NCBI RefSeq assembly: GCF_008728195.1
Contig: NZ_CP031598.1
Span: 3,658,001 to 3,722,000, forward strand
DNA length: 64,000 bases
Direction: 5' to 3'
Source: Roseovarius indicus
GTDB taxonomy: Bacteria > Pseudomonadota > Alphaproteobacteria > Rhodobacterales > Rhodobacteraceae
Shown here piece after piece: positions 36,604 to 52,491 of the stretch. Position 1 is the first letter of the stretch, and each line of letters begins with the position of its first letter. Below the pieces are notes generated by a model that did not search any database, was not told where the DNA came from, and saw only the letters and a list, made by a program, of their open reading frames with translations. A program made the position numbers and the translations under genes.

Positions 36604-37917
36604 TCAATCCGAAAGGCTGTCGCCGAGTGCCTGCGCAGCCATCCCGTCCAGCTGATCGAGACGGTTCCAGATGGCGACCCCGCGCGGGCCCAGAACGGCC
36701 TCGGCCTTGGCGCGCAGCTTGCCGGCCAGAACCTCCTCGGGAATCGGCGCATCGAGGTCATGGCGGATGGTCAGGCTGCGCCCGTCCACGAGGGTCAACG
36801 CGCCCTCGGCCTGCGCGTCGGTCAGGCTCTCGTCGCCCTCCACGGTGACCTTGTCGGCAAAGGTCGCAAGCTCGGTGTCGGTGCAGATGTCGTCGGTGTA
36901 GGTCCGGTCGCTGCCCGTCTGATCGCCCCGCAGGGTCATACCGGCAAGCCACTTGTAGGAAAACTTCGCCTCGAGCCCGGTCCGCGGCGCGGGATTGTTG
37001 CAGACGCGAAGCCAGCGGGGCGCCGTGCGCAGGTGAAGGGCCTCGATATCGGAAAGGGCAAGCGTCTCCGCCTTCCGCACCTCGGAGAGCGCCTCGATCA
37101 TCGCGTGCAGCCCGTGACAGCAGGCGTGCAGCTTGTACTTGTTGTCGCGGAACAGGAAGGTTTCCGGCGGCGGCGTGACCCACCCGGCCCCGGGGTCAGG
37201 CTGGGGCGTGTGCGTTTCGACAAAGCCCTGCACGCCCATCAGCCCGTCATCGGCCGAGGTGAAGCCGAGCCCCGCCAGCTGCGCACATTCCACGCCATTG
37301 GCCGCGGCGATACCGGCATTGTACGGCTTGCCCATGGTGCCGAATTGCGACTTCAGGCCCGATGCGCGGGTGGCGCAGAGGCTCAGCGCCGTGCGCATCT
37401 GGTCCTTGTCCAGACCGTAAAGGCGGCCCGCCGCTGCAGTCGCGCCAAAGGCCCCGGCGGTGGCTGTCTGGTGAAAGCCAAGATTGTAATGCGCGCTGCC
37501 CAGAACCACGCCCACTCGGATTGCCACCTCGGCACCGACAAGAAACGCCTCGACCACCTCTTCCACGCTGGCGGCCTGGTCCTCGCCCGCGGCGAGGGCT
37601 GCCGGGTAGATGCCCACCGACAGGTGCCCGACATGAGCAAAATGGGTATCGTCGTAATCGAGCGCGTGGCTGGTTGCCCCGTTGACCAGCGCCGCCATCC
37701 GGGCCGGCACGCGCGCGCCGCCGAAGACCGAAGCCACTGGCTTGCCGCCCTCGCGATCTGCCAGTTGGCGCAGTTTCTCAGCCAGCGGCTCGCCGATACC
37801 GGCGACACCGCAGGTCACCCAGTCGAGCAGTGAATAACGCGCCAGTTGCAGTTCGTGCTTGGGCAGCTGGTTGCGCGGAAGAAGCGCGAGGCCTGCAAGA
37901 TCGTCAATGAACGCCAT
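36604..37917 (-). CDS. MmgE/PrpD-family protein
   Basis: A 437-aa enzyme of the 2-methylcitrate dehydratase/immune-responsive gene 1 fold. It shows the expected early ALDYDDTHFAHVGHLSVGIY segment with conserved Asp and His, then ASGLKSQFGTMGKPYNAGIA and KLHACCHGLHAMIEAL. Known members dehydrate 2-methylcitrate or decarboxylate cis-aconitate, but many family members have unknown substrates; no prp cluster is present. The ATG at 37917 is preferred to an upstream in-frame start with random-looking residues. It is last in the minus-strand series, 138 bp after the symporter gene, so possibly a separate unit. Confidence 0.88.
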   Translation of the reverse strand: MAFIDDLAGLALLPRNQLPKHELQLARYSLLDWVTCGVAGIGEPLAEKLRQLADREGGKPVASVFGGARVPARMAALVNGATSHALDYDDTHFAHVGHLSVGIYPAALAAGEDQAASVEEVVEAFLVGAEVAIRVGVVLGSAHYNLGFHQTATAGAFGATAAAGRLYGLDKDQMRTALSLCATRASGLKSQFGTMGKPYNAGIAAANGVECAQLAGLGFTSADDGLMGVQGFVETHTPQPDPGAGWVTPPPETFLFRDNKYKLHACCHGLHAMIEALSEVRKAETLALSDIEALHLRTAPRWLRVCNNPAPRTGLEAKFSYKWLAGMTLRGDQTGSDRTYTDDICTDTELATFADKVTVEGDESLTDAQAEGALTLVDGRSLTIRHDLDAPIPEEVLAGKLRAKAEAVLGPRGVAIWNRLDQLDGMAAQALGDSLSD

Positions 37918-38055
37918 GGGTGGGCTCCGGTTTGGGCGTTGTGTCTGCAAGGTCGAATAGCACACCGCGAGAGGGGATAGAACGGCCCGGCTGGGGGCCA
38001 TTCACTTTGTCGGCCAGGCCATAACCTTGCGCAATGGCTCTGGTTCGCTCATCGA

Positions 38056-39915
38056 TCACGAGGCCTTCTTTACGACCCTCTCCAGTCCGGCGGCCAGCCA
38101 GTCTGGGGTGCGCCGGTCTTCCGGCGCGCCAAGCGTGATCGGCTTGATGCGCTCGGCCGATGTCCGGCCCAGTCCGACACGGTAGGCGAACCACCACACC
38201 AGCAGCACGCCCAGCAGCCAGAAAAGGATCTGCCAGACCCAGAGCGACGGGATGCCCAGGTCTGCCGACCGCTCGGTAAAGATCGGCTCGCTGAAGAACG
38301 TGTTGCCGAGGATGGCCCCCGGCCCGTAGGCAAGGAACCCCCAGAGCAGCATCAGCGACCACAAAAGCCCCCGCCCGCCCGTCTGGCGCGGCGGCAGGGC
38401 TGCCTCGACCGCATCGTGCAGGCGGTCACGCTGAAACCGGTCGGGCGCGCGCAGCGTGGCGGCCGAGCTCAACAGGACAAAGGCCAGGTTGAACGCCAGC
38501 CCCCAGGCCGCCGAGTGGATGGTCAGCGGCCAGCGGCCCCAGGGCAGCTCGACGAAGAGCGACTCGAACAGGATCAGGCCCAGCGGCTCGGTGAAGGTCA
38601 CGATCAGGCAGCCGATGGCGAGCCCCGCCATGACTGCGCCGCGGCTGATCACGCGAAGGAATGTCAGCCCCAGAAGCGCTGGCAGAAGCTGCACCGAGAG
38701 CGGCAATGCCACGCTGGCCCCGATGGCGCAGATCAGCGGCGCGAAACTGGCGGCGAGCGCCACGAAGAAGAAGGCGAAGCCCAATGCGATACGATGGCCG
38801 AGGCGTGTCTGCCGGGCATCGAGCTTCGGGAAGAGATAGGTCAGCACGAGCTCGCGCGTGATCAGGATGGACCCGCCGGTGACGAAGAAACTGACCGCCA
38901 GCAGCCCGCCGATCATCATCAGCAGCAAAAGCCCTGCCCCGGCCAGTGGCTCGATTTCGAAAAGCGTACCGGCCAGCGCCACGGGCCCGTCGGCCATCCG
39001 CGCCGCCAGAACCGGGCCGCCCAGAACGAAGCCGCCCGCGACAAGCCCCGCCAGAAGCCACACGGTCGACACGCCGAAGCCGCGCCCGGCCGGTGCGGTC
39101 TGGCCGAGATAGAGCACCGCCGGAGAGAACACGATTCCGAGCAGCGCCACGGATGACGACGCGATGGCGGCCGCCGTGAAGATCCCGCCAGGCGGCATTG
39201 CCTTGCCGATCCCGGCCGAGTTCTGCAGGACACCGGGGATACGATCCCAAAGGATGCCGTCGGCGACGCCGATGGGTTGCGCCGGAAAACCCGGGCCGGT
39301 GGCGGTGATCTCGGTCAGAATGGTCAGCCCCGGCAACAGCAGCGCCAGAAGCCCGGAATACATTGCCAGCGTCATGATCGTCGCCCGCCAGCCTCCGACA
39401 ATGGCCGGAATGGCCAGCGCGATGGCGATCAGCCAGACCCCGGCCGCACGGGGGATAAGACCCTCGGTCGCCGCCTCGAGCAGGACGGACACCGTCGACA
39501 GGATATGACCCGCGAAAGGCAGCGCGAAAAGCACGGTGAGCCCCATCACGATCACCCGAAGCGCCACGGAATCGTAGAACCTTCCCAGTGCTTCACCGGG
39601 CGTGGAAAGCCCCGCCACCCGCGTGGCCATCCAAAGCCGGTTCCAGACCAGCAGTGCCGCGATGGCAACAAGCACCAGCCCGGCCGAAACGTGCGAGGCC
39701 TGAAGGCCGAACCGCCCGACCATGGCGAAATGCCGCTCCACCCCCAGCCCGGCCGCGGCCAGTCCCGGCAGAAGGAACATCACCGCCCAGCCCGGCAGGT
39801 TCGCGCCGCCATCGGCAAAATCGCCGGGCGGGCCGCCGACCCGCGCCGTGCGGGCCGCGAAATAGAGACCGTAAAGCGCGATCAGCACGAGCAAACTGAG
39901 AAGCAGCGGTGTCAC
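38056..39915 (-). CDS. Sodium:solute symporter-like membrane protein
   Basis: A 619-aa protein with about 13 transmembrane segments. The early segments, GFGVSTVWLLAGLVAGGFVL and GGSILITRELVLTYLFPKLD, fit the SSS family (acetate/pantothenate permease-like) but the usual sodium-site motif is not obvious, so the assignment is moderate. The C-terminus adds two extra helices (LWVWQILFWLLGVLLVWWFA) and a basic tail. It starts with GTG at 39915, overlapping the previous stop as GTGA, so it is coupled to the four-helix protein, as in transporters with a small partner subunit. Confidence 0.78.
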   Translation of the reverse strand: MTPLLLSLLVLIALYGLYFAARTARVGGPPGDFADGGANLPGWAVMFLLPGLAAAGLGVERHFAMVGRFGLQASHVSAGLVLVAIAALLVWNRLWMATRVAGLSTPGEALGRFYDSVALRVIVMGLTVLFALPFAGHILSTVSVLLEAATEGLIPRAAGVWLIAIALAIPAIVGGWRATIMTLAMYSGLLALLLPGLTILTEITATGPGFPAQPIGVADGILWDRIPGVLQNSAGIGKAMPPGGIFTAAAIASSSVALLGIVFSPAVLYLGQTAPAGRGFGVSTVWLLAGLVAGGFVLGGPVLAARMADGPVALAGTLFEIEPLAGAGLLLLMMIGGLLAVSFFVTGGSILITRELVLTYLFPKLDARQTRLGHRIALGFAFFFVALAASFAPLICAIGASVALPLSVQLLPALLGLTFLRVISRGAVMAGLAIGCLIVTFTEPLGLILFESLFVELPWGRWPLTIHSAAWGLAFNLAFVLLSSAATLRAPDRFQRDRLHDAVEAALPPRQTGGRGLLWSLMLLWGFLAYGPGAILGNTFFSEPIFTERSADLGIPSLWVWQILFWLLGVLLVWWFAYRVGLGRTSAERIKPITLGAPEDRRTPDWLAAGLERVVKKAS

Positions 39916-40382
39916 CGGCGCCCACCCCTGTGCGGAAGGCGAGACGCAGGGCGCAGGTTGTTGTCGCGGATGACGTCGAACCTCTCGAAGGCGCCGCGCG
40001 GCCCGAAGGCTATCACGAGGTAGATGATCACCGCCACGACCAGCGAAGCCAGACCCAGCGCCACCGGAAGCACGACACGCTCGGCCATCTCGGCCGGGGC
40101 CACCAGCACGGTGAGCAGCAGCGCCACGATCCCGACGGCAAAGGCAACCATGCCAAGCGCCGTCTCGCCCGCCGTGAACCGGGTCTTGAGTACGGCATTG
40201 ACGATGACATGGCCCACAAAGCCGAGGATCAGCACCGCGAAACCCGCCCCGATCCACCACGCGCCGCCACCGGCCGTCACGCCCTTGTGCAGCAGCGCGG
40301 CGGCCAGGAAGACCGCCGGCGACCAGATCGCCATCACCAGCCCGTGGCGGTCGAGGCGGTCGAAGAGGTTGTTCTCGATCAT
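39912..40382 (-). CDS. Four-helix membrane protein
   Basis: A 156-aa protein with four predicted transmembrane helices (about residues 14-32, 40-63, 72-92 and 100-125) and a basic C-terminal tail. I do not recognise a family. Small membrane proteins often precede SSS-type symporters, and the GTGA overlap with that gene suggests a paired subunit. It lies 20 bp after the flotillin-like gene. Confidence 0.75.
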   Translation of the reverse strand: MIENNLFDRLDRHGLVMAIWSPAVFLAAALLHKGVTAGGGAWWIGAGFAVLILGFVGHVIVNAVLKTRFTAGETALGMVAFAVGIVALLLTVLVAPAEMAERVVLPVALGLASLVVAVIIYLVIAFGPRGAFERFDVIRDNNLRPASRLPHRGGRR

Positions 40383-40402: not shown

Positions 40403-42622
40403 TCAGTCATCCTTGCCGCCGGAACTGCCGTCTCCGCCCTTCACCTCGGGGAAGTTGCGGAACGACATGCCGCCGGCCGAGCCGAGGTTCTTCAGAGGCA
40501 GGCCGATCTCTTCCATCAGCCCGTCGACGAACGCGACCTGGGTGCGGTATTTCATGGCGGAGTTCACCACCGAATCCGACACGCTGCCGCCCCCGCCGGT
40601 GCCATCGCCGCCGCCCGAGCCGCCACCGCGCATCTCGGACGGGCTGTTGAGGCCCGGCAGGCCGTCGACCTGAAGGATCTTGATCGACTCGATGTTCTCC
40701 ATCGGCTTGACCTGCTCGCGAATGATTTCGGGCAGGCGGTTGACCACGGCCTCGAGGATGGCGCTGCGCCGCGCCTCGTCGTTGCGCATGTTCTCGGCCT
40801 CGTTGAGCTTGCGATTGCCCTCGGCATCGACGCCATAGCGGAACTCGGCGGCACGCGCCTCGGCCATGTCGCCCTCGGCGCGCTGTTCGCTGGCGCTCTT
40901 CTCGGCCTCGGCCTGCTTGACCAGCCTGATGGTCTCGCGCTGCGCGCGGGCCTCGGCGTCGATGACCTCGATCGTCTTGGCACGGTTGGCCTTCTCGGCG
41001 GCGCGGGCCGACTCGATCTGCTCTTCGGTCTGGGCGAGGATCTTTTGCGCCTCCGCCTCGCTGGTCCGGGCCACGGCCTCGTCGATGGCCTTGTTGACCA
41101 CGGCGATCAGTCGCTCTTTCTCGGCGATGTCGATTTCCATCTGCCGCTCGATATCGAACCGTTCGATATAGCGCCGCGCGGCCACCCGCAGTTCTTCGAC
41201 TTCGCGGTCGGCGACGATGCGGGCATCCTCGATCTCGCGGAAGCTGGCGGTCTCGGCCAGCTTGATCTTGTGCTCACGCTGGATTTCGCGGGCACGGATC
41301 TGTTCCTCGGTCTCGACCCGGTTGCTTTCCACGGCCAGCTTGCGGGCCAGTATCGCGCGTTCCTGCTCGGTTTCCGATTCCGCGACCGAGACGCTGATTT
41401 CCTTCTCCCGAGTCACATCGGCCAGCTCGATGAATTTCTCGGTGTTGATCCGGGCGTTCTCGATTTCCTGTTGCGACAGGTAATGTGCATGCTGGATCTC
41501 GGCGTTGCTCTTGGCCTCGTAGGTTTCAAGCTCCAGCCGCGATTTGATCTGCGCCTCGCGCACCTCCTGTTCGCGCTCGATACGCTCTGACTCTACCTGC
41601 CGGCGGGTCTGGATGCGCTCGGTCTCGAGGCGGGATTTCGCGGTGATATCGGCCAGCTCGGTGTCGCGCAGTCGCTCGATCTCGTAGGACCGGATTTCGT
41701 TTTCGCTACGAATACGTTCCTCGTCGATGGCCCGCGACTTGGCGATCTTGACGCGCTCGGATTCCTCTTCCGTCCTGGTGCGGGCCTGGGTGATGGCGAT
41801 CTGCGAAGTGGAGCGTTCGGCCTCGATCGCCGCGGCCTGCTGAGATTTGCGAGTCTCGATGTCGCGGCTCTGATCGAGCCGGACATATTCGAGATCGCGG
41901 TCGATCTCGATCACCCGTTGTTCGGCTTCGAAATCGCGGGTCTTGATCTGCACCTTGGTTTCGTTCTCGATCTGATTGCGCAGCTTGCGGCGCTCTTCGG
42001 TTTCCCGCACGATCAGGGTCAAACCTTCGGAGTCGAAGAAGTTCGACGGGTCGAAGACCGAGATATCCGCCTGGTTGAGCGAGGTGAGCGACGCGGTTTC
42101 AAGCTCCAGCCCGTTCTTTTCGAGAACCCCTTCCAGCAGCTGTGTCACCTGCCGGATGAAGCCTGCACGATCCTGGTGGATCTCGTCCATCGTCATCGAC
42201 GCGGCGACGGTCGACATCGCATCGACCAGCCGGCCCTGGATCACCTCCTTCAGGGCCATCGCATCCTGCGTGCGCGCGCCAAGGGTGCGCGCGGCGGCCG
42301 AAACGCCCTCTTCCGTCGCCACCACCCGCACGAAGAACTCGGTCGTGATGTCGATCCGCATCTTGTTCTTGGTGATCAGCGATTGCTCGCCCTGCCGCCG
42401 GATCTCGATCGGGATGGCGTTCATGTTCACCACGGTGATGTCGTGAACGATCGGGATCACCAGCGCCCCGCCGCCCATCACGACCCGCTCGCCGCCCGAA
42501 CCGGTTCGGACGAAACTCTGGTCTTTCGAGGAATGGCGATAGAGCCAGTGCAGCAGGTAGACCCCCACTGCGATCAGGATCGTGATCAGGATGACGATTG
42601 CGATGATATCGGCACCGGTCAT
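40403..42622 (-). CDS. Flotillin-like SPFH protein with extended coiled coil
   Basis: A 739-aa membrane-anchored scaffold. One N-terminal transmembrane segment (about residues 4-27, IIAIVILITILIAVGVYLLH) is followed by an SPFH/band-7 domain (about 38-200; GGGALVIPIVHDITVVNM, RIDITTEFFVRV). About 400 residues of charged heptad sequence come next (ERIQTRRQVESERIEREQEV and similar), then a conserved helical segment (ILEAVVNRLPEIIREQVKPM), a Gly-rich linker and a tail. This is the YqiK/flotillin architecture, with a coiled coil longer than in typical FloA. Flotillins organise membrane microdomains, so it may cluster the transporters and the rhodopsin-like protein encoded beside it. Confidence 0.9.
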   Translation of the reverse strand: MTGADIIAIVILITILIAVGVYLLHWLYRHSSKDQSFVRTGSGGERVVMGGGALVIPIVHDITVVNMNAIPIEIRRQGEQSLITKNKMRIDITTEFFVRVVATEEGVSAAARTLGARTQDAMALKEVIQGRLVDAMSTVAASMTMDEIHQDRAGFIRQVTQLLEGVLEKNGLELETASLTSLNQADISVFDPSNFFDSEGLTLIVRETEERRKLRNQIENETKVQIKTRDFEAEQRVIEIDRDLEYVRLDQSRDIETRKSQQAAAIEAERSTSQIAITQARTRTEEESERVKIAKSRAIDEERIRSENEIRSYEIERLRDTELADITAKSRLETERIQTRRQVESERIEREQEVREAQIKSRLELETYEAKSNAEIQHAHYLSQQEIENARINTEKFIELADVTREKEISVSVAESETEQERAILARKLAVESNRVETEEQIRAREIQREHKIKLAETASFREIEDARIVADREVEELRVAARRYIERFDIERQMEIDIAEKERLIAVVNKAIDEAVARTSEAEAQKILAQTEEQIESARAAEKANRAKTIEVIDAEARAQRETIRLVKQAEAEKSASEQRAEGDMAEARAAEFRYGVDAEGNRKLNEAENMRNDEARRSAILEAVVNRLPEIIREQVKPMENIESIKILQVDGLPGLNSPSEMRGGGSGGGDGTGGGGSVSDSVVNSAMKYRTQVAFVDGLMEEIGLPLKNLGSAGGMSFRNFPEVKGGDGSSGGKDD

Positions 42623-42654: not shown

Positions 42655-43344
42655 TCAGTAGCGGTCCTGGCCGGCGACGGCCACGACGATGAGAGACGGG
42701 ATGATGAGGTTGACGATGTCGAACACGCTGTAGAGCACGATCACACCGCCCGATTGTCCGACGCCGATCACGACGTCGACGAAATGCAGGATCGGATAGG
42801 CGGCCCAGCCCACGGTCATCAGCAGCCGGATCCAGAAATAGCCGATGCGGACGGGGCGCGAGGATTTGCGCACCGCCTCGGACATGGCGCCGAAATACAT
42901 CTCGCCCAGGATGTAGAGCCAGAAGGCGATCGACAGCAGCGCGCCCAAGGTCGGGTTGAAGAAGCTGGCATCCCCCAGCCAGCGGCCGAAGACCATCAGA
43001 AGCGCCGCCCCGGTGATGCGCCAGAACACGCCGACCGGCACGGGGCCTTGGGTGCGGGCGAAGAAATAGACCGCCGCCACCTGTAGCGGATGCACCGTGT
43101 ACCACGCCGAGAAGCGCACGCCGGCACTGGCCTCGCCGCCCGAGAACCAGAAGCCCGCCGCTCCGGCATAATAAAGCGCCGTGGCAAGGCAGGCCGTGCC
43201 GACCAAGCCCTCGGGCACCCGCCAGCGTTCGTTTGACCAGCTGAGACCCACGTAACAGATCATCGCCGAGGCCAGGCTCATCAGGGCAAGCCCGGTCAGG
43301 GCGCTGGCGACCACGTCGGCGGAGGTATAGAGAGTAGTGAACAT
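42655..43344 (-). CDS. Microbial-rhodopsin homologue lacking the retinal-binding lysine
   Basis: A 229-aa seven-helix protein. It can be aligned by eye along its length with green proteorhodopsin: helix C RFSAWYTVHPLQVAAVYFF against RYIDWLLTVPLLICEFYLI, helix D ALLMVFGRWLGDA, helix E SIAFWLYILGEMYFG, helix F VGWAAYPILHF against FGWAIYPVGYF, and helix G LYSVFDIVNLIIPSLIVV against IYNLADFVNKILFGLIIW. Arg77, Trp180, Tyr183, Pro184 and Asp209 of the retinal pocket are kept. Proton acceptor Asp97 is Ala80, donor Glu108 is Ala91, and Schiff-base Lys231 is Leu213 (codon CTC, 42706-42708). It therefore cannot bind retinal covalently. The upstream permease stop overlaps its ribosome site (TGAGGAA). 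Confidence 0.88.
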   Translation of the reverse strand: MFTTLYTSADVVASALTGLALMSLASAMICYVGLSWSNERWRVPEGLVGTACLATALYYAGAAGFWFSGGEASAGVRFSAWYTVHPLQVAAVYFFARTQGPVPVGVFWRITGAALLMVFGRWLGDASFFNPTLGALLSIAFWLYILGEMYFGAMSEAVRKSSRPVRIGYFWIRLLMTVGWAAYPILHFVDVVIGVGQSGGVIVLYSVFDIVNLIIPSLIVVAVAGQDRY

Positions 43345-43353
43345 TGCGTTTCC

Positions 43354-44772
43354 TCAGACGGTGGCCCGGATATGCGGTGAGCGCCCGTAAAGAGCGACCA
43401 TCGGCAGGATCAGCAGACCGAAGATGAACTGTTGCCATTCGTACTGGAGCCCGATGCCCTGCAGGAACGAGGTCAGCACCTGCAGCACGAGGACACCGAT
43501 CACGGTGAAGCCATAACCGCCGTTGCCGCCCAGCAGCGAGGTGCCCCCGATGACGACAGCGGCCAGCGTGGTGAAAAGATAGGGGTCGCCCACCCCGATG
43601 AACGCCCCGCCGGACCAGCCCAGCAGAAGCGAGCCGGTCAGCGCCGCGAAGACGCCCGAGATCGTGTAGCAGCCGACCCAGTACTTGAACTCGCTCACGC
43701 CGATCAGGCTGGCCGAGCGGCGGTTGCCGCCGAGGGCATAGAGGTTACGGCCCCAGGCCGTGGTTCTCAGCCCGATGATCATGAGAATGGCGATGATGAT
43801 CCAGATGGCGATGGTGGGCGGGAAGTTCATGCCGATGAACTTTCCGTTCATCGCCGCCAGGTTCGACAGCCATTTCGGCACCGTCCCGAACACGTTCCCG
43901 GCGAATTGCGAGCCGATAGAAGTCATGATCTGGGTGAAGCCTGCAAGCGCAAAGCCCGACCCAAGCGTCACGATCAGTGCCTGCCCCTGCAAACGGAAGC
44001 TCATGATGCCATTGAGAAGCCCGACGATGCCGCCCAGCACGAGTATGAAGCCGAAGGCCACGAAGGACGGCACGCCGAGCGTGATCAGGAACAGAAGCGC
44101 GATGTTGGACGACCCGATCACGAAGGGAATCGACAGGTCGAGCCCGCCCAGAAGCGCCACCATCGTCTGCCCGACGCTTGCGATGCCGAGAAAGGCCGCG
44201 AACAGCAGGATCGCCTTGATGTTTGGCCCCGAGAGGAACCCCTCGATCGAGAAGGACGAGATCACGATCAGCGCGAAGAGTACGATCAGCCCGATGAAGG
44301 CGCTGCGGCCCGAGGCGAACTGGCCCGAGACCTTGAAGGCGAATAGCAGGATCAGCTCGAGGACGAGGAAGCCGATCAGGTTCTTGATCGACCGGAACTC
44401 CGGGATGGCCGCCGTCAGCAGCAGGTAGAGCACCAGCAGCCCGGCCATCGCGATGATCAGCACGCGGTTGTTGCGCCAGAGCTTGCGCGCGCGGCCGCTG
44501 CGGTCTTCCTGCTCTTCCTCGGTTTCCTCTGCGCGGGCCGCGGCATTGGCCTCAAAGGCGGCCACGATATAGTTGAGCAGCAGGAAGAGAACCGTCGCCG
44601 TCAGGATGGTGAAAAGTATCACCCGCTGGGCCGAGACCTCCTGCGCGAACCCCACGCCCAGGCCGATCGCCGCCACGACCAGCGACAGGCCGATATTCAG
44701 CCAGATCAGCGCGAAGGACTTCGGCATAGGCAGCACGGAGACGCGGCCCCTGGTATCGGAACGCCCGGTCAT
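43354..44772 (-). CDS. Ribose-type ABC transporter permease, N-terminally extended
   Basis: A 472-aa inner-membrane permease of the RbsC/BPD_transp_2 family. The canonical core (about 180-465) includes VGQTMVALLGGLDLSIPFVI, GFILVLGGIVGLLNGIMSF and the ATPase-contact region TTAWGRNLYALGGNRRSASL. Ahead of it lie about 130 extra residues with four hydrophobic segments separated by an acidic cytoplasmic stretch (EETEEEQEDRSGRARK), unusual for a family of about 330 aa. The start overlaps the other permease by four bases (ATGA). Confidence 0.9.
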   Translation of the reverse strand: MTGRSDTRGRVSVLPMPKSFALIWLNIGLSLVVAAIGLGVGFAQEVSAQRVILFTILTATVLFLLLNYIVAAFEANAAARAEETEEEQEDRSGRARKLWRNNRVLIIAMAGLLVLYLLLTAAIPEFRSIKNLIGFLVLELILLFAFKVSGQFASGRSAFIGLIVLFALIVISSFSIEGFLSGPNIKAILLFAAFLGIASVGQTMVALLGGLDLSIPFVIGSSNIALLFLITLGVPSFVAFGFILVLGGIVGLLNGIMSFRLQGQALIVTLGSGFALAGFTQIMTSIGSQFAGNVFGTVPKWLSNLAAMNGKFIGMNFPPTIAIWIIIAILMIIGLRTTAWGRNLYALGGNRRSASLIGVSEFKYWVGCYTISGVFAALTGSLLLGWSGGAFIGVGDPYLFTTLAAVVIGGTSLLGGNGGYGFTVIGVLVLQVLTSFLQGIGLQYEWQQFIFGLLILPMVALYGRSPHIRATV

Positions 44773-46106
44773 TTCGGCACCCCGAAAAGGCTGCTGTCAG
44801 GCTGGACAATAATTGCCACGAATAGCGCGATCAGCATTACCGCCACGAAGAGGTAAAGGAACGGGCCCATCCTGCGGGCGCCGGATTCCGCGTCGACCAG
44901 CCTTGCCGCAAGGACGATGGCGATGGCGCCCAGCCCGGCGATCAGGGCGAAGGCCTGAACCGCCGAGATCTGGAACCCGTCTGTGGCCACGCGCGCCGGC
45001 TCGATCAGGAAATACCGCTCGGAGGTCGCCGCCTCGACGGCGACCGGCGCGACCTCGGCATAGGTGTCGAAGGTGCCGACCTGCATCATGATGCTGAGGA
45101 CGATGACGCCCAGCACGAGGAACGCGCTCCAGGGGGAGATGAAGCTGACATAGCGCGCGATCACGGGCACCAGCAGCGTCAGAAGCAGGGAAAGGACAAG
45201 GATGATTCCGTAGACCATCTGCGTCATGAACGCCTGGATCGCGCCGAAGTTGAAGGTGGCCAGCACGTACCCGATCAGCCACAGGCTGACTGCGCCCAGA
45301 AGGGCCCCGGTCACCCCGCCGCGCCCGCCCGACAAAGCCACGCCGCCCAGCACCAGCGCGGTAATCGCCGTCAGCGTCATGTTCTGGCCTTGGGTCGGGT
45401 CGCCGGAAGAGATCAGCGCGGTGTAACAGATCGCACCCAGCCCGACATAGACGCCGGCGATCAGGTGCGCCCCGATGCGTACGACGTCGGTGCGTATGCC
45501 CGAGGTCCATGCGGCACGCTCGTCATAGCCCATCATCTTGAGGTTGGTGTAGAAGGTCGATGCGGTGAACAGGTACCAGCTCAGCGTGGCGACCACGAGG
45601 ATCACCAGAACCGGCGAAAAGATCGTCGTACCCGCGCCCCACCCCATCATGAATTCAGGCGCAACACCGCCCGGACGCGGCAGGATCACGAGGTTGATGC
45701 CGGTGAGCGCCAGGAACCCGGACAGCGCCACGATGATCGGCTGCACCCGCACCCAGATCACGATCAGCGCAAACAGAAGCTGGTAGAGCATGCCCAGCCC
45801 GATCGCCACGATGAAGGTCGCGATCGGGCTGGCCAGGATACCGGCCGTGCTGAGCTTGACGAGGACAACGTTGATGAAGGCCAGAAGCGGCCCGACGGCC
45901 AGGTCGACCGTGCCGCGCCCGGCCACCGCCAGCACCATCAGCGCATAGGTCGCAAGGATCACCGGCGCCGCCACGATGACGGCGCTGCCGATACCCGATT
46001 CCGTGATCAGGTTCGGCCCGCGGATGACCGCTGTTCCCAGCAGGGCGGCCATCAGCACGATGGGCACCAGCAGGTAGGCGTTTGCGGATGAGGCGCGGGA
46101 TGCCAT
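44769..46106 (-). CDS. Ribose-type ABC transporter permease, C-terminally extended
   Basis: A 445-aa permease of the same family. Its N-terminal core (to about residue 315) has LAVAGRGTVDLAVGPLLAFI, VQPIIVALSGFLALTGINLV and MGYDERAAWTSGIRTDVVRI. About 120 further residues with three more hydrophobic segments and an extracytoplasmic loop (GTFDTYAEVAPVAVEAATSE) follow, again beyond the usual family length. It pairs with the adjacent permease, to which it is coupled by an ATGA overlap, to form the membrane part of the importer. Confidence 0.9.
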   Translation of the reverse strand: MASRASSANAYLLVPIVLMAALLGTAVIRGPNLITESGIGSAVIVAAPVILATYALMVLAVAGRGTVDLAVGPLLAFINVVLVKLSTAGILASPIATFIVAIGLGMLYQLLFALIVIWVRVQPIIVALSGFLALTGINLVILPRPGGVAPEFMMGWGAGTTIFSPVLVILVVATLSWYLFTASTFYTNLKMMGYDERAAWTSGIRTDVVRIGAHLIAGVYVGLGAICYTALISSGDPTQGQNMTLTAITALVLGGVALSGGRGGVTGALLGAVSLWLIGYVLATFNFGAIQAFMTQMVYGIILVLSLLLTLLVPVIARYVSFISPWSAFLVLGVIVLSIMMQVGTFDTYAEVAPVAVEAATSERYFLIEPARVATDGFQISAVQAFALIAGLGAIAIVLAARLVDAESGARRMGPFLYLFVAVMLIALFVAIIVQPDSSLFGVPK

Positions 46107-46138: not shown

Positions 46139-47092
46139 TCAGAGATCGATCACGCGGCGGTCGCTCTTGGCTTCGGACGAGCGGCTGCGCGAGCCCCCGT
46201 CAGAGCCGCGGGACGACCAGTCGCGCGAGGATTTGCCCCGGCGTTCGGGGTCGTTCTGCACGATCTTCTTGAGCACCGGCGTGATCACTTCCTTGAACTT
46301 TTCGGGGTCTTCCGAAGTCGGGAAGTGGCCGCCGCCGAAGATGATGCACTCGCTGTTCTTGACCTTCTCGGCGGTACGCTGGGTCATCTCGGGGGTGCAG
46401 GCGAAATCGTATTCCCCGGTCAGGAAGTAGATCGGCACCTTGCCGGAAATCTTGTGCACCTTGTCGCGGTAGTCGCTGTCGACGGAGTAGTAGAACAGGT
46501 CGCCCTTGAAGATGCCGGGGCCCCCTTGAGCGTAATACCACCATGTCTCCCAGCGGTATTCATCCGGGCTGTCGGGTGCCATCAGGCCGAACACGGCCGT
46601 GGCACAGGCCTCGCCGCCGTGAATGGCGGGGTGATGCAGCGGGTCGATCCACCAGCCCGGCGAGTGGTCGCAGCCTTCCAGCGCGATCAGGGCGGAATAT
46701 TCGTTCTCGTAGCGCAGTGCCAGTTCGAGGCAGATGTTGCCGCCCATCGACTGGCCCATGATCACCGGCTTGTGCAGTTCCAGCGCGCGGCAGAATTCGA
46801 GGATGAACTCGGAATAGAAGCTGGTGGTCAGCTTGTACTCGTCCTCCATCAGTTGGAAGCCTTCCGGCGGAATCGACTTGCCGTGCCATGGCAGGTCGAA
46901 CGCGATCATCCGGAAGTTCGAATTCATGTCCGGGTCGCTGAGCTGATGGCGGTATTCGCGCCCGTCGGCACCGGCGGTGTGCAGGCAGACCATCGGAATG
47001 CCCTCGCCCGCTTCTTCGTAATAGGTCCGGTACGTCTTGCCCTGGCAGGTGATATAGACGTAGCGGCCGACGATCGGATCATGCTTGTTCAT
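46139..47092 (-). CDS. Alpha/beta hydrolase
   Basis: A 317-aa cytoplasmic hydrolase with nucleophile Ser115 in MGQSMGGNICLE, oxyanion region VCLHTAGADGREYRHQL, Asp in LTGEYDFACTPEM and catalytic His in GGGHFPTSEDPEKF. The last 40 residues are Arg/Ser-rich (SSRDWSSRGSDGGSRSRSSE) and probably disordered, an unusual tail. No signal peptide. It is encoded within the ABC operon, 12 bp after the SCP2-like gene, so it probably acts on the imported substrate, perhaps an ester or lactone. Confidence 0.9.
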   Translation of the reverse strand: MNKHDPIVGRYVYITCQGKTYRTYYEEAGEGIPMVCLHTAGADGREYRHQLSDPDMNSNFRMIAFDLPWHGKSIPPEGFQLMEDEYKLTTSFYSEFILEFCRALELHKPVIMGQSMGGNICLELALRYENEYSALIALEGCDHSPGWWIDPLHHPAIHGGEACATAVFGLMAPDSPDEYRWETWWYYAQGGPGIFKGDLFYYSVDSDYRDKVHKISGKVPIYFLTGEYDFACTPEMTQRTAEKVKNSECIIFGGGHFPTSEDPEKFKEVITPVLKKIVQNDPERRGKSSRDWSSRGSDGGSRSRSSEAKSDRRVIDL

Positions 47093-47104: not shown

Positions 47105-47509
47105 TTAAACTTCGCGCATCAGCGCCAGCATCCAGGTCAGCGCCCGCAGGTTCTGCCAAAAGGTCAGCTGGTTGCCTTCGATGTGAAGCTGCTTGTGCAG
47201 CGGGTGCGCCATCGCCCAGATGTCGTTGAACATCGGCGGCGGCATTTTCTGGCTGAACTTCGACCAGGCCGACGAAGGCGCGCGCAGCGCGAACTCGTAG
47301 CCCAGGTCGGAGGGTTCGAGCCCTTCGGAAATCTTCTCGACCTTGCCCTTCCGGATTTCCAGTAGGTAGTCGGTGTCGTCCACGCCCAGCACGAAACGGG
47401 CATTGAAGAACCGTCCGATCCGGGGCAGGACACGGTCCTCGTTCACAAGGCGCGCCCAGCGTTCGACCCATTCAAGGTCGAAGGCGTTTCTGCTGCCGAA
47501 TTTGCTCAT
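47105..47509 (-). CDS. SCP2-like lipid/sterol-carrier domain protein
   Basis: A 134-aa protein with the pattern of SCP2-type lipid carriers: strand-rich ARFVLGVDDTDYLLEIRKGK, then GYEFALRAPSSAWSKFSQKM, then LHKQLHIEGNQLTFWQNLRAL (G-x-hydrophobic IEGN motif). The match is by shape and a few residues, so moderate. It is a single-domain protein placed between the ATPase-PEBP gene and the hydrolase gene, suggesting that it carries a hydrophobic intermediate to the hydrolase. The ATG at 47509 is set by GGAGAGT upstream. Confidence 0.65.
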   Translation of the reverse strand: MSKFGSRNAFDLEWVERWARLVNEDRVLPRIGRFFNARFVLGVDDTDYLLEIRKGKVEKISEGLEPSDLGYEFALRAPSSAWSKFSQKMPPPMFNDIWAMAHPLHKQLHIEGNQLTFWQNLRALTWMLALMREV

Positions 47510-47525
47510 TGTACTCTCCTGTCTG

Positions 47526-49688
47526 TCAGGCCGCGGGCAGCGCCGCTTTGGCCGGGCCATAGGTTGCGGTGAAACTTGTCTGGTCGATCGTCACGGGCAG
47601 GATCGCCTGCGCGAAAGCGGGAAGGTCGGCATCGGGCGGCAGGTCGAGCGTCCGCGCCTTGAGCGCGTAGAGCGTGAAGATGTAGCGGTGCGCCCGGTCG
47701 GGCGGCCATGGTCCGCCATAGCCGCGCCCGAAGCCGGGGATGCCGAAGGTGACGAAATCGGGGTTCAGCTCCTGCGAGCCCGAGGGCATGGCCGACGTCA
47801 TCGACGCGCCCTCCTTCAGGCTGCGCGCATCGCCGGGGATGTTGTAGACCAGCCAGTGCGCGAAGCTGCGCGGAAACTCGAACTCCGGCGGCAGGTCGGG
47901 ATCGGTGATCGACAAGGCAAAGCTCTGTGTCCCCTCTGGCACCCCTTCCCATTCCAGCGCGGGCGAGCGCTTGTTGGTTTCGGAAAACCGGTCCGGAATG
48001 ATGCTGCCCTGCGGGATATCGGGGGCCAGCAGCAGGAAACCCGATTGATTCATGGCAATCCTCCTGTTGATCTCGGGGCGCATGCGCACCGGGCGCGCGG
48101 CGGGGCGGCCGGCCTCGTGCCGTGGGCGCCATTCGACGACCTTGCGTTCCTCGTGGTGATCCTCGCCGGGCATCGCCGCATCAAGCTTGCGGCCGAAAGT
48201 GGCGTTCAGGATGACATGGGGGTCGAAGGGCGGCTCGAAGGTCGAGGAGATCACCCCGCCCCGGAACACCAGCACCCGGTTGCAGAGGTCGATGAATTCC
48301 TCAATCTCGGACGACAGGAACACCACCGCGTTGCCCCGCGCCGCAAAGGCCCGCAGGTTGCGATAGAGATCGAGCTTGGCGCCGACGTCGATGCCCCGCG
48401 CCGGATCGTTCAGCACCAGCACGCGCGGCCGCTCGGCAAAGGACCGCGCGATCAGGATCTTCTGCTGGTTGCCGCCCGAAAGCGAGGTGATCAGGTTGCC
48501 CGGGTCGCCCATCTTGGTGGCAAGGTTGCCGGTCTCGTGCTCGAAGATCGGGTCGAGCTTCTGCCGGTTGACGAAATTGAACGGCCCGCCGGCAGAATAT
48601 TCCGGATAGATCGACAGGCACATGTTCTCGTAGATCGACAGGTTCGGGAAGATCCCTTCCTTCTTCCGGTCGCCCGAGACATAGGCGATGCCGTTATGCC
48701 GGGCGCTGTGCAGGTCGAAGATCGGTTCGGCAACCCCGTGATGCACGGTGTGGATCGACCCGCCCAGCGCGGGCTCGATCCCGGCGAGGGACTGCACGAA
48801 ATCCGCCTGCCCCTGCCCGTCGAGACCGGTCACGCCGACCACCTCCCCCGGGTAGAGGTTGAAATCGAAGGCCGCGGTGTCGGGCCAGACCCGCATGTCG
48901 TTGGCGCGCAGCACCGGGCGGTCGGCCTGCTTCTCGACCGGCTTGCTGGTGGAATGCGCGCTTTCGCGTTCCGGTCCGGCGATCAAGTGCAGGATCTGTT
49001 CCTCGGTGATCTCTTCCTTGTTCAGCGTGCCCACCGACACGCCATCGCGCAGCACGGTGGCCCGGTCGGCGATCTGGACAAGCTCGGCGATCCGGTGCGT
49101 CACGATGAAGATGGCGCAGCCCTGCGCCGTAAGCTCGCGCATCTTCCGGAACAGCCGCTGTGTCGCCTCGAAATCGAGCGCCGCCGAGCTTTCGTCGAGG
49201 ATCAGCACGCGCGGGTTGGTCAGCATTCCCCGGGCGATGGTGATCCACTGCTTGATCGACAGCGGCAGCTCGCCAACGATCGTCTCCGGGTCGAGATCGA
49301 AGCCCAGCAGCTCGCGCATGATCTTCTCGGCGCGGGCGTAACGCTCGTCATAGGGCTCCGCGGTCGAGAACAGCCCGTCGGCGCCCAGGAACAGGTTGTC
49401 GATGACCGAACATTCATCGGCAACAAGCACCTCCTGGTAGACGTTCGAGATGCCCAGCGCGCGGGATTCAGAGGGGTTCGTCGCCGATTTGCCGAAGATC
49501 GACACCTGCCCCTGATCGGGCACGAGCACGCCGGAGATCACCTTGGCCAGCGTCGACTTGCCAGAGCCGTTGCCGCCGATGATGGCGTGCACCTCTCCGG
49601 TGAAGGCGCGCAGGCTCACGCGATCAAGCGCCACGGTCGGACCGAAGGTCTTGCGCACGTCGATGATTTCGGCCGCTACGGTCGCCAC
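47526..49688 (-). CDS. Ribose-type ABC ATPase fused in frame to a PEBP (YbhB/YbcL) domain
   Basis: A 720-aa protein. Residues 1-510 are a duplicated sugar ABC ATPase. The first half has Walker A GGNGSGKST (38-46), a degenerate signature LPLSIKQWITIAR and Walker B VLILDESSAAL. The second half has a degenerate Walker A GLDGQGQAD, an intact signature SLSGGNQQKILIARSF and VLVLNDPARGIDVG. Residues 546-720 are a phosphatidylethanolamine-binding-protein domain (AHWLVYNIPGDARS, GYGGPWPPDRAHRY, FTLYAL). The join is a basic linker (RPRHEAGRPAARPVRMRPE). Met546 has its own AGGAGG, so the PEBP part may also be made alone. No stop codon separates them. Confidence 0.88.
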   Translation of the reverse strand: MATVAAEIIDVRKTFGPTVALDRVSLRAFTGEVHAIIGGNGSGKSTLAKVISGVLVPDQGQVSIFGKSATNPSESRALGISNVYQEVLVADECSVIDNLFLGADGLFSTAEPYDERYARAEKIMRELLGFDLDPETIVGELPLSIKQWITIARGMLTNPRVLILDESSAALDFEATQRLFRKMRELTAQGCAIFIVTHRIAELVQIADRATVLRDGVSVGTLNKEEITEEQILHLIAGPERESAHSTSKPVEKQADRPVLRANDMRVWPDTAAFDFNLYPGEVVGVTGLDGQGQADFVQSLAGIEPALGGSIHTVHHGVAEPIFDLHSARHNGIAYVSGDRKKEGIFPNLSIYENMCLSIYPEYSAGGPFNFVNRQKLDPIFEHETGNLATKMGDPGNLITSLSGGNQQKILIARSFAERPRVLVLNDPARGIDVGAKLDLYRNLRAFAARGNAVVFLSSEIEEFIDLCNRVLVFRGGVISSTFEPPFDPHVILNATFGRKLDAAMPGEDHHEERKVVEWRPRHEAGRPAARPVRMRPEINRRIAMNQSGFLLLAPDIPQGSIIPDRFSETNKRSPALEWEGVPEGTQSFALSITDPDLPPEFEFPRSFAHWLVYNIPGDARSLKEGASMTSAMPSGSQELNPDFVTFGIPGFGRGYGGPWPPDRAHRYIFTLYALKARTLDLPPDADLPAFAQAILPVTIDQTSFTATYGPAKAALPAA
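48051..48066 (-). promoter_or_regulatory. Internal ribosome binding site before the PEBP domain
   Basis: On the minus strand AGGAGG is followed by ATTGCC and ATG (48053-48051), in frame within the fusion. The spacing is ideal, so a free 175-residue PEBP protein could be translated from the same message. Confidence 0.65.
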
Positions 49689-49789: not shown

Positions 49790-51007
49790 TTACTGGGCGG
49801 CCGAATGCGACGCCGGATCATAGGCTTCCGGGTCGGCGGGACGCAGGAAGAAGTTGTCGAGGAAGTCCTTGCCGGCCCATTCCTCGATGCCCGGGTGGTA
49901 CCAGCCTGCCGACTGCTCGGAGCAATCCTCGGGAATGGCTTCCATCATCTCTTCCTTGGTCATCTTGACGGGCGTCGTCAGGATCGACTGGATCTTCGGA
50001 CCCTGCCCCTGAAGCGTGCGCATCATGATGTTCCAGATCATCTCGAAGTCGTCACCCGGGGGCCAGGCGTGGATCGCCGCCGACACGTAATCCGGGTTGT
50101 TCCGCCAGTAGCAGAGCGCGCCCATTTCCGAGCCGATGGTGATCGGAACCATCGGACGGCCGGATTGCTGCAGGGCCCGCAGTGCGCCGAGTTCGGAGGC
50201 CGATTGGATCAGGATGCCATCCAGCTTGCCGGGGTTGGTGGCCAGCCAGCGCTGAACCTCGGCCTGCGCGACCTGGTCGGTCCACATGCCGGCAATGGGG
50301 CCTTTGACCTCGATATCAGGGTATTCCGCCATCGCCGCCTCGATACCCACGTTCTGGCTATCGGAGGCGGACGCACCGGGGATACCCTCGACGTTCAGCA
50401 CGCGGCCCTCGCCACCGATCTCCTCGGCCATCCACTCGCCCATCATGCGGCCACCCACGACGAAGTTCGCCGACGAGTTCACCGAATACGGGCTGGTCAG
50501 GTAGCCGATGCCCGAGAACACGGCCACGTCGTTGTTATAGGCATACTCGACCGAGGCATTGAGCGCGGTCGGGTTGGAACAGCACACCACGATGGCATCG
50601 ACACCCTGGTCGACGAGCTGGCGGATCTGCTGGATCTGGGTGGCGTCGTTCAGGTTCGACTGGGTGATGATCACCTCGTCGATCATGCCGAGATCTTTCC
50701 ACTTGGGAATGATCTCGTTCTGAAGCCGGTCCATCACGGCCGCGCGCCACGTGTTGCCGGCATAGGACGAGGCATAGCCGATCGTCCAGGGCGGCGGGTT
50801 CTTGGCGACGAAATCGCGATAGGCGCTGTCGCCGATGGGCTGGTTCGGGTCGAGCAGGTCAGGATTGTATAGCTTGTCCTGAATGTCCTGCGGCAACTCG
50901 TCTACGCCGGCCGAGGCGGCCGAAGCGACGGAGACCGCCGCGCATAGCGTAGCGGCGCGCAGCACGGCTGCGGTATTCGAAATTATGGCTTTCCTCCCTG
51001 GGTTCAT
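49790..51007 (-). CDS. Ribose-type ABC transporter substrate-binding protein
   Basis: A 405-aa periplasmic protein with signal peptide (about residues 1-33, ending SVASAASA) and the RbsB/Peripla_BP_4 fold. Diagnostic parts are WTIGYASSYAGNTWRAAVMD, IRQLVDQGVDAIVVCCSNPT and GIEAAMAEYPDIEVKGPIAG. Ligand is unknown: the family binds ribose, xylose, autoinducer-2 and other small polyols. It is the first gene of the minus-strand series, about 100 bp before the ATPase gene with a hairpin between, consistent with the highest expression in the operon. Confidence 0.93.
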   Translation of the reverse strand: MNPGRKAIISNTAAVLRAATLCAAVSVASAASAGVDELPQDIQDKLYNPDLLDPNQPIGDSAYRDFVAKNPPPWTIGYASSYAGNTWRAAVMDRLQNEIIPKWKDLGMIDEVIITQSNLNDATQIQQIRQLVDQGVDAIVVCCSNPTALNASVEYAYNNDVAVFSGIGYLTSPYSVNSSANFVVGGRMMGEWMAEEIGGEGRVLNVEGIPGASASDSQNVGIEAAMAEYPDIEVKGPIAGMWTDQVAQAEVQRWLATNPGKLDGILIQSASELGALRALQQSGRPMVPITIGSEMGALCYWRNNPDYVSAAIHAWPPGDDFEMIWNIMMRTLQGQGPKIQSILTTPVKMTKEEMMEAIPEDCSEQSAGWYHPGIEEWAGKDFLDNFFLRPADPEAYDPASHSAAQ

Positions 51008-51187: not shown

Positions 51188-52282
51188 TCAGGATTTCCTG
51201 CGATTGAGCCCCGGCACGGGCCCGTAGTGACGGAGTTCATCCGCGAATGCAAACCCCGGCGCGGGGAAGCTTATCGGGCCGTTGGGGCTGTCCACGGTCA
51301 CACGTTGCAGGTGAGGATGGTCCGCCAGCCCCGCCATGTCATTGACAGAGGCGAAGGCAATCTGGCTGCGAGACAGGATATCAACTGCCTGTTCCGCACT
51401 GAACCGCGCAAAGGCGCGCGCCACGTGCGCATCGGTGTCCTCGCGATTTCGCACGCGTTGCACATTGGTGGCAAATCGCGGGTCGTCGCTCAGGTCCGGT
51501 GCGCCGATGAAATCGCGGCACAGGATCGCCCATTCCCGGTCGCTCTGGATCGAGATCAGGATCGGCGGGCCGCTGCCCGGCTGGAAGGCGCCGTAGGGTG
51601 ATATCGACGGATGGGCCAACCCTGCGCGCCGCGGGCTGTTGCCCCCTTCATGGTTGAGCAGCGGCACTGACAGCCAATCGGCCATCACGCCGAACATCGA
51701 CACGTTGATCTCGGCGCCCTGCCCTGTCCTGCCGCGGCGGATCAGGGCCTCGAGTATGGCGGCATGGGCGGTAGCGCCGCTTGCGATATCCACGATGGAA
51801 ATGCCCACACGCGCCGGTTCGTTCGGCCCGCCGGTGATCGAGCACAGCCCCGATTCCGCCTGGATCAGCAGGTCATAGGCCTTCCGGTCGGCCATCGGGC
51901 CCGTCTCGCCATAGCCGCTGATCGAACAGAGGATGAGCTTCGGATAATCGGCGCGAAGCCGGGAGGGTTCAAAGCCCAGCCGACCCAATGACCCCGGCTT
52001 GAGGTTCTGGACAAGAACATCCGCCCCCGCCAGCAGCCTTTCCAGCCGTGCGCGGTCTTCCGTCTGCGCAAGGTCGAGCGTGAGGGACTCCTTGCCGCGG
52101 TTCAGCCAGACGAAATAGCTCGACTGGCCCTTCACCGCCTCATCGTACCCCCGCGCGAAATCGCCCTCGGGCCGCTCGACCTTGACGACATGCGCCCCAG
52201 CATCCGCCAGGCGGGACGTGGCGAAAGGCGCGGCGACGGCCTGTTCGATGGCGACAACCTCGATTCCCTCGAGCGGCAGCAT
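51188..52282 (-). CDS. CaiB/BaiF-family CoA transferase
   Basis: A 364-aa family III CoA transferase. It has GIEVVAIEQAVAAPFATSRL and DAGAHVVKVERPEGDFARGY at the N-terminus, VLVQNLKPGSLGRLGF, and the catalytic Asp in RKAYDLLIQAESGLCSITGG. Members move CoA between carboxylic acids. The ATG at 52282 is certain from the start of the family domain and shares a base (TGATG) with the stop of a short upstream frame. It lies 180 bp upstream of the binding-protein gene on the same strand and may supply CoA activation for the imported compound; that link is inferred. Confidence 0.92.
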   Translation of the reverse strand: MLPLEGIEVVAIEQAVAAPFATSRLADAGAHVVKVERPEGDFARGYDEAVKGQSSYFVWLNRGKESLTLDLAQTEDRARLERLLAGADVLVQNLKPGSLGRLGFEPSRLRADYPKLILCSISGYGETGPMADRKAYDLLIQAESGLCSITGGPNEPARVGISIVDIASGATAHAAILEALIRRGRTGQGAEINVSMFGVMADWLSVPLLNHEGGNSPRRAGLAHPSISPYGAFQPGSGPPILISIQSDREWAILCRDFIGAPDLSDDPRFATNVQRVRNREDTDAHVARAFARFSAEQAVDILSRSQIAFASVNDMAGLADHPHLQRVTVDSPNGPISFPAPGFAFADELRHYGPVPGLNRRKS

Positions 52283-52491
52283 CAGGCCGGCCCCGGCAGG
52301 CCGGGCACGTGGTCCGACAGGCAAGAGCGGCTCACATTGTCCCAGAACAGCACCACGCGGCCGTGCGGCGCTTCGCGGCACTCAGGCCGGGCCTGCACCC
52401 CCTGCCCGAGCATGGCGTCTCCGATATCTTCATATGTGTCAGCGAGATCTTGCATCGGAACAACTTGCGCAACGGTCGGGAACCCCGGCAT
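52282..52491 (-). CDS. Possible small protein coupled to the CoA transferase
   Basis: A 69-codon frame reading MPGFPTVAQVVPMQDLADTY and ending LSDHVPGLPGPA. It has natural-looking composition and a stop that shares its last base with the CoA transferase start (TGATG), the pattern of translational coupling. No ribosome site or family is evident, so it could be chance. Confidence 0.35.
   Translation of the reverse strand: MPGFPTVAQVVPMQDLADTYEDIGDAMLGQGVQARPECREAPHGRVVLFWDNVSRSCLSDHVPGLPGPA

Follow-up and report, generated by a model that had tools for sequence, protein, structure and literature searches.

The stretch of DNA analysed here (the window: 64,000 nucleotides, positions 3,658,001 to 3,722,000 of contig NZ_CP031598.1 of Roseovarius indicus) encodes on its minus strand, at 42655..43344, a microbial rhodopsin homologue of 229 amino acids with an ATG start, which is a member of a published kind of protein, the lysine-less flotillin-associated rhodopsins (FArhodopsins, FAR). 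With moderate confidence, we regard it as a FArhodopsin without covalent retinal that serves as a light-independent membrane subunit of a flotillin-organised ATP-binding cassette (ABC) importer; a comparison of importer permeases and the persistence of the module's chemistry through the loss of the lysine point to such a subunit, tied to flotillin. New here are the constant gene module around the rhodopsin gene, the extensions of its permeases, a lysine loss placed once on the tree together with an arginine swap, and the lack of matches to a pump or to retinal-forming enzymes in a near-complete genome.

A rhodopsin fold without the retinal lysine

The protein scores 37.2 bits with the Pfam family Bac_rhodopsin, above the cut-off of 24.6 (E-value 2.9e-9), and its AlphaFold model (predicted local distance difference test, pLDDT, 90) has the seven-helix rhodopsin fold; the closest solved structure is that of the flotillin-associated rhodopsin PsFAR (template modelling score, TM, 0.92), and entry 8cnk takes the third Foldseek rank. 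By sequence, the top solved relative is also a flotillin-associated rhodopsin, 9r21 (E 9.5e-31), and proteorhodopsins rank lower. These searches place the protein inside the rhodopsin superfamily and bear out the original prediction, which had been made from the sequence alone and had described, with exact coordinates, a microbial rhodopsin homologue lacking the retinal lysine. All its residue assignments hold: Lys231, Asp97 and Glu108 of the proteorhodopsin GPR correspond to Leu213, Ala80 and Ala91, and Arg77, Trp180, Tyr183-Pro184 and Asp209 are conserved. The sole lysine, Lys160, is part of the loop that joins helix E to helix F, as judged from the sequence and the helices of the model, and neither helix G nor any other helix offers an alternative lysine for a Schiff base; the protein is therefore a rhodopsin homologue and not a retinylidene protein. 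Both carboxylates of proton-pumping proteorhodopsin (Asp97 and Glu108) are missing, and the profile search, the structure model and the residue counts support the earlier view, which excluded both a retinylidene pump and a classic sensor.

The Leu213 codon, CTC, needs three base changes to become a lysine codon, from which it had been argued that a sequencing error is unlikely. An error or a pseudogene is ruled out, since 82 of 82 loci lack the lysine and the ratio of non-synonymous to synonymous substitution rates (dN/dS) is low, namely 0.021 against the nearest relative and 0.106–0.178 against six others; the gene is under purifying selection. The DTT, DTL or DNI motif of marine FArhodopsins is absent, the window protein reading Ala80, Val84 and Ala91, which assigns it to the lysine-less subgroup, as described for the freshwater members. 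The flotillin gene 32 bases downstream and an importer gene 9 bases upstream likewise identify a lysine-less FArhodopsin and provide the best clue to its function; both neighbours went unremarked in the original prediction. Its statement that lysine-less homologues are known and that their function is unsettled agrees with passages of Haro-Moreno et al. 2023 (PMC10308929).

The comparison covered 82 loci, including the window, four plasmid loci (taken from six plasmid records with a match) and 77 loci from a scan of genome contigs, which relied on two peptide patterns and on an alignment restricted to lysine-less proteins and may therefore overlook lysine-bearing intermediates. The loci are partly dependent: L009 is very close to the window species, and L012/G011 and probably L063/G887 are possible duplicates. 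The lysine site is occupied by Leu in 33 loci, Arg in 45 and Gln in four, and by Lys in none. Among the matches listed in two database sets, the residue is Leu in 120 of 120 (of 394 matches) and Arg in 116, Val in two, Cys in one and Leu in one (120 listed of 2192). A set obtained with PsFAR as the query (120 listed of 3229, two of them left out of the counts as too short) has Lys in 117 and Glu in one of the 118 proteins counted. Position 121 in helix D, which by sequence belongs to the retinal pocket, is Arg in all lysine-less rows counted outside the PsFAR set (30/30, 52/52 and, among the matches listed, 120/120 and 120/120), Glu in 102 of 118 rows listed for the PsFAR query and Gly in all 14 proteorhodopsins compared.

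A quick tree of 79 rows, computed from an alignment without the lysine column, unites all 49 lysine-less rows with Leu, Arg or Gln in one branch (support 100 in the Shimodaira–Hasegawa-like approximate likelihood ratio test, SH-aLRT; length 0.64) on the FAR side, which is separated from the proteorhodopsin outgroup with an SH-aLRT of 100; the window protein lies inside the FAR branch. The tree requires two lysine changes, one on the Leu/Arg/Gln branch and one in the lone Glu row among the lysine-bearing FAR, and on this topology the lysine appears to have been lost once in the branch of the window protein. Loci L124 and L125 (genomes G525 and G695) carry a FArhodopsin that combines the lysine and D97/T101 with an Ala at this site in helix D and may represent an intermediate state.

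Permease extensions and the importer–flotillin module

Two ABC permeases of the BPD_transp_2 family, assigned with Pfam, are encoded directly upstream of the rhodopsin gene on the same strand. Permease 2 (43354..44772), which ends 9 bases before the rhodopsin start, has an extra N-terminal membrane segment of about 150 residues, and permease 1 (44769..46106) has an extra C-terminal membrane segment of about 120 residues. Besides the window, the extension of permease 2 is filled in 76 of 79 rhodopsin loci, the exceptions being L041 and L069, which start close to the gene, and L059, where the gene is split over two frames; the extension of permease 1 is filled in 76 of 76. The lysine-bearing modules L122 and L124 are also extended (87–100% filled, 19–37% identical).

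Genomes were also sought by permease 2 and not by rhodopsin, which yielded 7 of 385 genomes in a class sample, 4 of 295 in a family sample and 8 of 398 in a phylum sample (threshold 1e-50 in the last instead of 1e-60), the window genome being counted each time. Permease 2 is near full length in eight genomes (the window genome G000, G011, G525, G598, G618, G675, G695 and G887) and consists of the core only in nine (G587, G035, G163, G943, G755, G781, G767, G763 and G827). A rhodopsin was found in 8/8 genomes with the extended permease versus 0/9 with the core-only one; the seven new genomes of the phylum sample had been typed by match length before the rhodopsin search. The probability of this split is 4e-5 if the genomes are treated as independent, and they are related.

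The five core-only loci that were read (L126, L130, L131, L140 and L142) all contain the binding protein, the ATPase and both permeases, and references for flotillin, the small transmembrane (TM) protein, the sodium:solute symporter (SSS)-like protein and the SCP2-like protein have no match in them at E 1e-5; L126 starts just past permease 2, its downstream side lying outside the sequence. L140 and L142 also have a hydrolase 43% identical to that of the window and a succinate-semialdehyde dehydrogenase (SSADH) that shares 60% identity with its counterpart in the Arg-type module. In all five loci, permease 1 stops short of the extension (321–324 amino acids in four), and the extension is 0–2% filled in the three measured. 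An open frame lies upstream of the permease 2 core in L126 and L131 (67–69% filled at 13–14% identity), where the core follows the end of permease 1 after about 40 bases, which leaves no room for the extra segment. A tblastn search with the extensions against a set of five loci that included L122 and L124 was too insensitive to be used, as it missed L122, which has the rhodopsin, and detected one of two in L124. The idea that the rhodopsin-less permease of G587 is a contig-end effect was dropped, given the shorter permease 1 and the further genomes, in favour of a core-only importer. The rhodopsin, the flotillin and the permease extensions thus appear to form a single membrane unit added to an ordinary importer; no paper linking a rhodopsin to permease extensions was found in the open-licence PubMed Central (PMC) literature.

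The module is packed like an operon, all its genes lying on the minus strand. They are transcribed in the following order: the periplasmic substrate-binding protein (49790..51007; Peripla_BP_4, CUT2 type, by profile), a double ABC ATPase with a C-terminal phosphatidylethanolamine-binding protein (PEBP) domain (47526..49688; Pfam and profile), a small SCP2-like protein with a sterol-carrier fold (47105..47560; AlphaFold and Foldseek), an alpha/beta hydrolase (46139..47092; matching a PcaD-like profile far under the curated cut-off of that model), permease 1, permease 2, the rhodopsin homologue, the flotillin (40403..42622; 739 amino acids; Flot PF15975 and Band_7 in Pfam), a small membrane protein (39912..40382; 156 amino acids, four TM segments by hydropathy, no Pfam family above the cut-off) and the SSS-like protein (38056..39915). 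Between the binding protein and the small membrane protein, successive genes are separated by 101, -35, 12, 32, -4, 9, 32 and 20 bases, and the rhodopsin gene is preceded by a GAGGA stretch that resembles a ribosome-binding site and overlaps the permease 2 stop. The likelier start of the SSS-like gene is GTG at 39915, which overlaps the stop of the small membrane protein gene by 4 bases, since the listed open reading frame start (40260) overlaps that gene. All parts of a CUT2 importer are present, i.e., the Peripla_BP_4 protein, the double ATPase and two BPD_transp_2 permeases.

The model of the SCP2-like protein (pLDDT 81) has only SCP2-type entries among its ten best Foldseek matches; a weak Pfam SCP2 match was obtained for 9 of 32 relatives and none for the window protein itself. 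The SSS-like protein of the window has no Pfam match of its own, its relative in the Arg-type reference locus L007 matches only SSF at E 0.0064, below the cut-off, and the name is a weak, provisional one. A sequence search of solved structures at E 1e-5 gave no match for the flotillin. The PEBP domain is fused to the ATPase at E 1e-6 in 27 loci (the window, Leu-type loci and the Gln-type L038) and, at the same threshold, in no Arg-type locus. A promoter and terminator scan was not used; it gave one promoter-like site, on the other strand, against 2.4 expected, and 18 terminator-like sites against 9.5.

The gene company is constant. By blastp against two reference loci only, flotillin was found in 81 of the 82 loci, the small TM protein, the SSS-like protein and permease 2 in 80 each, permease 1 in 77, the hydrolase in 75, the SCP2-like protein and the ATPase in 74 each and the binding protein in 72; every missing gene coincides with a locus ending on that side, with one doubtful case, the SCP2-like gene of L049, which is present but cut by the contig end. 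All ten module proteins of the Leu-type and Arg-type references are homologous, with identities that range between 28% for the SSS-like protein and 63% for the binding protein. Most Arg-type loci have the SCP2-like and hydrolase genes, along with an IclR regulator and AttM, upstream of the binding-protein gene; exceptions are L050, where the SCP2-like and hydrolase genes come after the module, and L052, where both occupy the opposite strand. In L059, from a Yoonia sp. metagenome-assembled genome, the genes for permease 2, the hydrolase and the SSS-like protein each fall into two frames, probably through assembly errors, and the rhodopsin gene is whole. Records filed as plasmids of Rhizobiaceae and Martelella (NZ_CP119410.1, NZ_CP014276.1, NZ_CP011481.1 and NZ_CP069303.1) carry the module as well; one plasmid record, Pararhizobium gei p2, is typed as conjugative, so the module may move between hosts. 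The plasmid record of L005 is without annotation.

The flotillin gene lies within 150 bases of the rhodopsin gene in all 81 loci holding it, as would suit a purely structural seven-helix spacer or folding aid for flotillin that makes no contact with the importer; such a role is distinctly unlikely, however, as the rhodopsin co-occurs with the permease extensions and both are missing from core-only importers.

The chemistry around the importer outlived the lysine. The hydrolases of four lysine-bearing modules are 77–81% identical to that of the Arg-type reference, whereas their rhodopsins are only 35–40% identical; the Leu-type hydrolase is more distant (43% to the Arg-type reference). This suggests that covalent retinal is not what the module needs. 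The cargo is likely, judging from neighbouring genes, to be a small hydroxy- or dicarboxylate or its lactone. The module of L007 adjoins an AttM lactonase (415 bits, cut-off 390) and an SSADH (696, cut-off 646), together with an iron alcohol dehydrogenase and a regulator of the IclR type; enzyme by enzyme, this set matches the gamma-butyrolactone pathway of Agrobacterium. AttM is present in 45 of the 82 loci, the Fe-alcohol dehydrogenase in 38 and SSADH in 28, and an AttM-like gene with 67% identity stands beside the lysine-bearing module of G598. No AttM match was obtained at E 1e-6 between positions 30 and 58 kb of the window, the part of the genome searched; the Leu-type branch, to which the window belongs, has MmgE/PrpD and CoA-transferase III enzymes in place of the AttM set, and in the window these are encoded at 36604..38001 and 51188..52381, respectively, both on the minus strand and both common near the Leu-type module.

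Retinal supply, the pocket and the role of the protein

As a subunit of the importer, the rhodopsin homologue would sit between the flotillin system and the added membrane segments of both permeases, in contact with each, and would hold or regulate the importer within a flotillin-organised patch; the retained pocket might accommodate a small ligand or lipid.

The window genome (6.17 Mb, 99.99% complete) yielded a single match in the rhodopsin profile search, i.e., no second rhodopsin, and no match to Blh (PF15461) or to the RPE65-type enzyme (PF03055). Marine FArhodopsins, whose genomes also hold a second, proton-pumping rhodopsin, have been proposed to help a proton pump of the same cell (passages of PMC10308929), and two genomes with a lysine-bearing FAR, G598 and G675, do carry a second rhodopsin and Blh, the pathway being detected where it is expected. 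In the window genome, the three negative searches make this idea unfit, and it is refuted there unless a pump lies in unassembled sequence; only one of 48 other lysine-less genomes has a second rhodopsin, and the help of a pump is an extremely improbable function for the protein. The 48 genomes, drawn from the 77 loci, were checked for a second rhodopsin and Blh, and 43 lysine-less genomes for RPE65-type enzymes; in G306 and G320, two of the 48, the known lysine-less gene escaped the rhodopsin profile, which is thus imperfect for far members, whereas true pumps obtain much stronger scores (E 1e-42 and 1e-46). Genome G136 has one proteorhodopsin and neither a Blh nor an RPE65-type match. In G525, G618 and G695, the lysine-bearing FAR is the only rhodopsin match and Blh is absent, the genomes of G525 and G695 being 4 Mb in size and G525 having two RPE65-type genes.

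Several observations weigh against a light-independent importer subunit. Constant gene company is an indirect indication of interaction. The nine core-only genomes are a small set of relatives, with six members of one family and two of another, and four of them match at only 39–40%. The correlations of rhodopsin distances with those of flotillin, the permeases and the SSS-like protein (r 0.91–0.97) partly reflect the split between Leu and Arg types, which inflates them, and are weak support. In four lysine-bearing loci, a search at E 1e-4 did not find the small TM protein, and the genes for the binding protein and ATPase or for the SSS-like protein can sit on the other strand. Among the lysine-less genomes, G317 has the second rhodopsin, Blh exceeds the cut-off in three of 48 (G303, G307 and G317), and an RPE65-type match was found in three of 43 (G325, G331 and G341); the RPE65-type family also includes other enzymes. 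Scavenged retinal could possibly be held without a Schiff base.

A receptor with a scavenged, non-covalently bound retinal or carotenoid would make use of the retained aromatic pocket residues, and the few relatives with Blh or RPE65-type enzymes would agree with it. Most carriers tested, however, lack matches to both retinal-forming families, and Arg121 replaces a glycine that maps to Gly122 of bacteriorhodopsin, next to the ionone ring; in PsFAR, the sites homologous to His85 and Arg121 are those altered in the double mutant H84V/E120G, as named in the title of its structure entry. We consider such a receptor very unlikely.

A small but real chance is given to a ligand-binding subunit, in which the former retinal pocket with its helix-D arginine would bind the small substrate of the module (a carboxylate or lactone) or else a fatty acid and would gate the importer or signal to it, as a chemoreceptor derived from a rhodopsin. 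The arginine stands in every lysine-less row counted, against mostly Glu in lysine-bearing FAR and Gly in the proteorhodopsins compared, and the pocket columns of lysine-less rows are more conserved than the other helix columns (0.43 versus 1.06 bits; 4 of 20000 shuffles as low). The Arg-type modules with AttM, SSADH and the Fe-alcohol dehydrogenase suggest gamma-butyrolactone chemistry. There is also a precedent, since a retinal-free proteoopsin holds decanoate in its pocket through a salt bridge between the carboxylate and a lysine, according to passages of PMC11322631, and 8cnk is among the best Foldseek matches of the window protein; together with the invariant arginine, this makes a ligand plausible. 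On the other side, Asp/Glu125, four residues or one turn beyond Arg121, could merely neutralise it. Working proteorhodopsins have conserved pocket columns too (0 of 20000 shuffles as low), the aromatic residues perhaps being kept for folding only, and lysine-bearing FAR show weaker conservation (220 of 20000), so the pattern can mean either a kept pocket or merely a kept core. The pocket columns were mapped from the retinal contacts of bacteriorhodopsin, and the candidate ligand is hypothetical. The stronger proposal, that the rhodopsin is an obligate ligand-responsive importer subunit whose pocket, after a single loss of the lysine, was rebuilt round the invariant arginine to bind the transported small carboxylate or lactone or its lipid carrier, and which gates uptake through the permease segments within a flotillin patch, is unlikely; were it true, lysine-bearing FArhodopsins would represent early or intermediate stages of this chemical device.

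Relation to known systems and neighbouring genes

FArhodopsins were named by Haro-Moreno et al. 2023 (PMC10308929), passages of which describe them as always lying beside a flotillin gene where contigs allow, note that the marine FAR cluster also includes genes for a sterol carrier, a sodium symporter and an inner membrane translocator, and report freshwater metagenome members with Gln, Thr, Leu or Arg at the lysine site. By these descriptions, the window protein and the freshwater lysine-less FArhodopsins share the FAR branch, the flotillin neighbour, Leu, Arg or Gln at the site and the absence of a pump motif; theirs come from metagenome contigs that are mostly short, whereas the present data comprise a near-complete genome of 6.17 Mb and a further 81 loci, many of which, judging by record titles, belong to cultured Alphaproteobacteria. 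Relative to the same passages, the present data add the full module, the permease extensions, the helix-D arginine and the lack of a pump in the window genome. The Rh-noK proteins of betaproteobacteria are also rhodopsins without the lysine but, as described there, are related to xanthorhodopsin and stand in tandem with a working pump, unlike the window protein, which belongs to the FAR branch and has no pump beside it.

PsFAR (9r21 and 9r23) has the same fold as the window protein and a histidine at the position of His85, but it retains the lysine, the Asp97 equivalent and the helix-D Glu, and is 28–29% identical to it. Proteorhodopsins (4jq6 and 7b03) share the seven helices and the equivalents of Arg94, Trp, Tyr-Pro and Asp227, whereas the window protein lacks the lysine, the acceptor and the donor and has Arg for Gly in helix D. 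The importer resembles CUT2-type sugar importers of the RbsABC kind in its binding protein, double ATPase and two BPD_transp_2 permeases and differs in the extended permeases and in the added rhodopsin, flotillin, SSS-like and SCP2-like genes. The blcABC (attKLM) operon of Agrobacterium and the surroundings of the Arg-type module have the AttM lactonase, the Fe-alcohol dehydrogenase, SSADH and an IclR regulator in common, BlcR presumably being of the IclR family; unlike that operon, the window module has no AttM match nearby, and its Leu-type branch has MmgE/PrpD and CoA-transferase. The operon serves gamma-butyrolactone metabolism (passages of PMC4231840).

The locus ties one lineage of retinal-free rhodopsins to a defined importer. 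It names permease segments that appear and vanish together with the rhodopsin, and it is an argument that transporters can recruit a seven-helix light receptor as one of their parts. The module occurs in cultured bacteria with ordinary genomes, which makes its function testable rather than a matter of guesses from metagenomes.

Beyond the module, the window encodes a large caspase-domain (Peptidase_C14) protein with TPR repeats at 32312-35362, and, near the module at 52723-57578 and 61499-63637, siderophore-type iron uptake genes (a binding protein, two FecCD permeases, an ATPase and a siderophore-interacting protein) and a TonB receptor.
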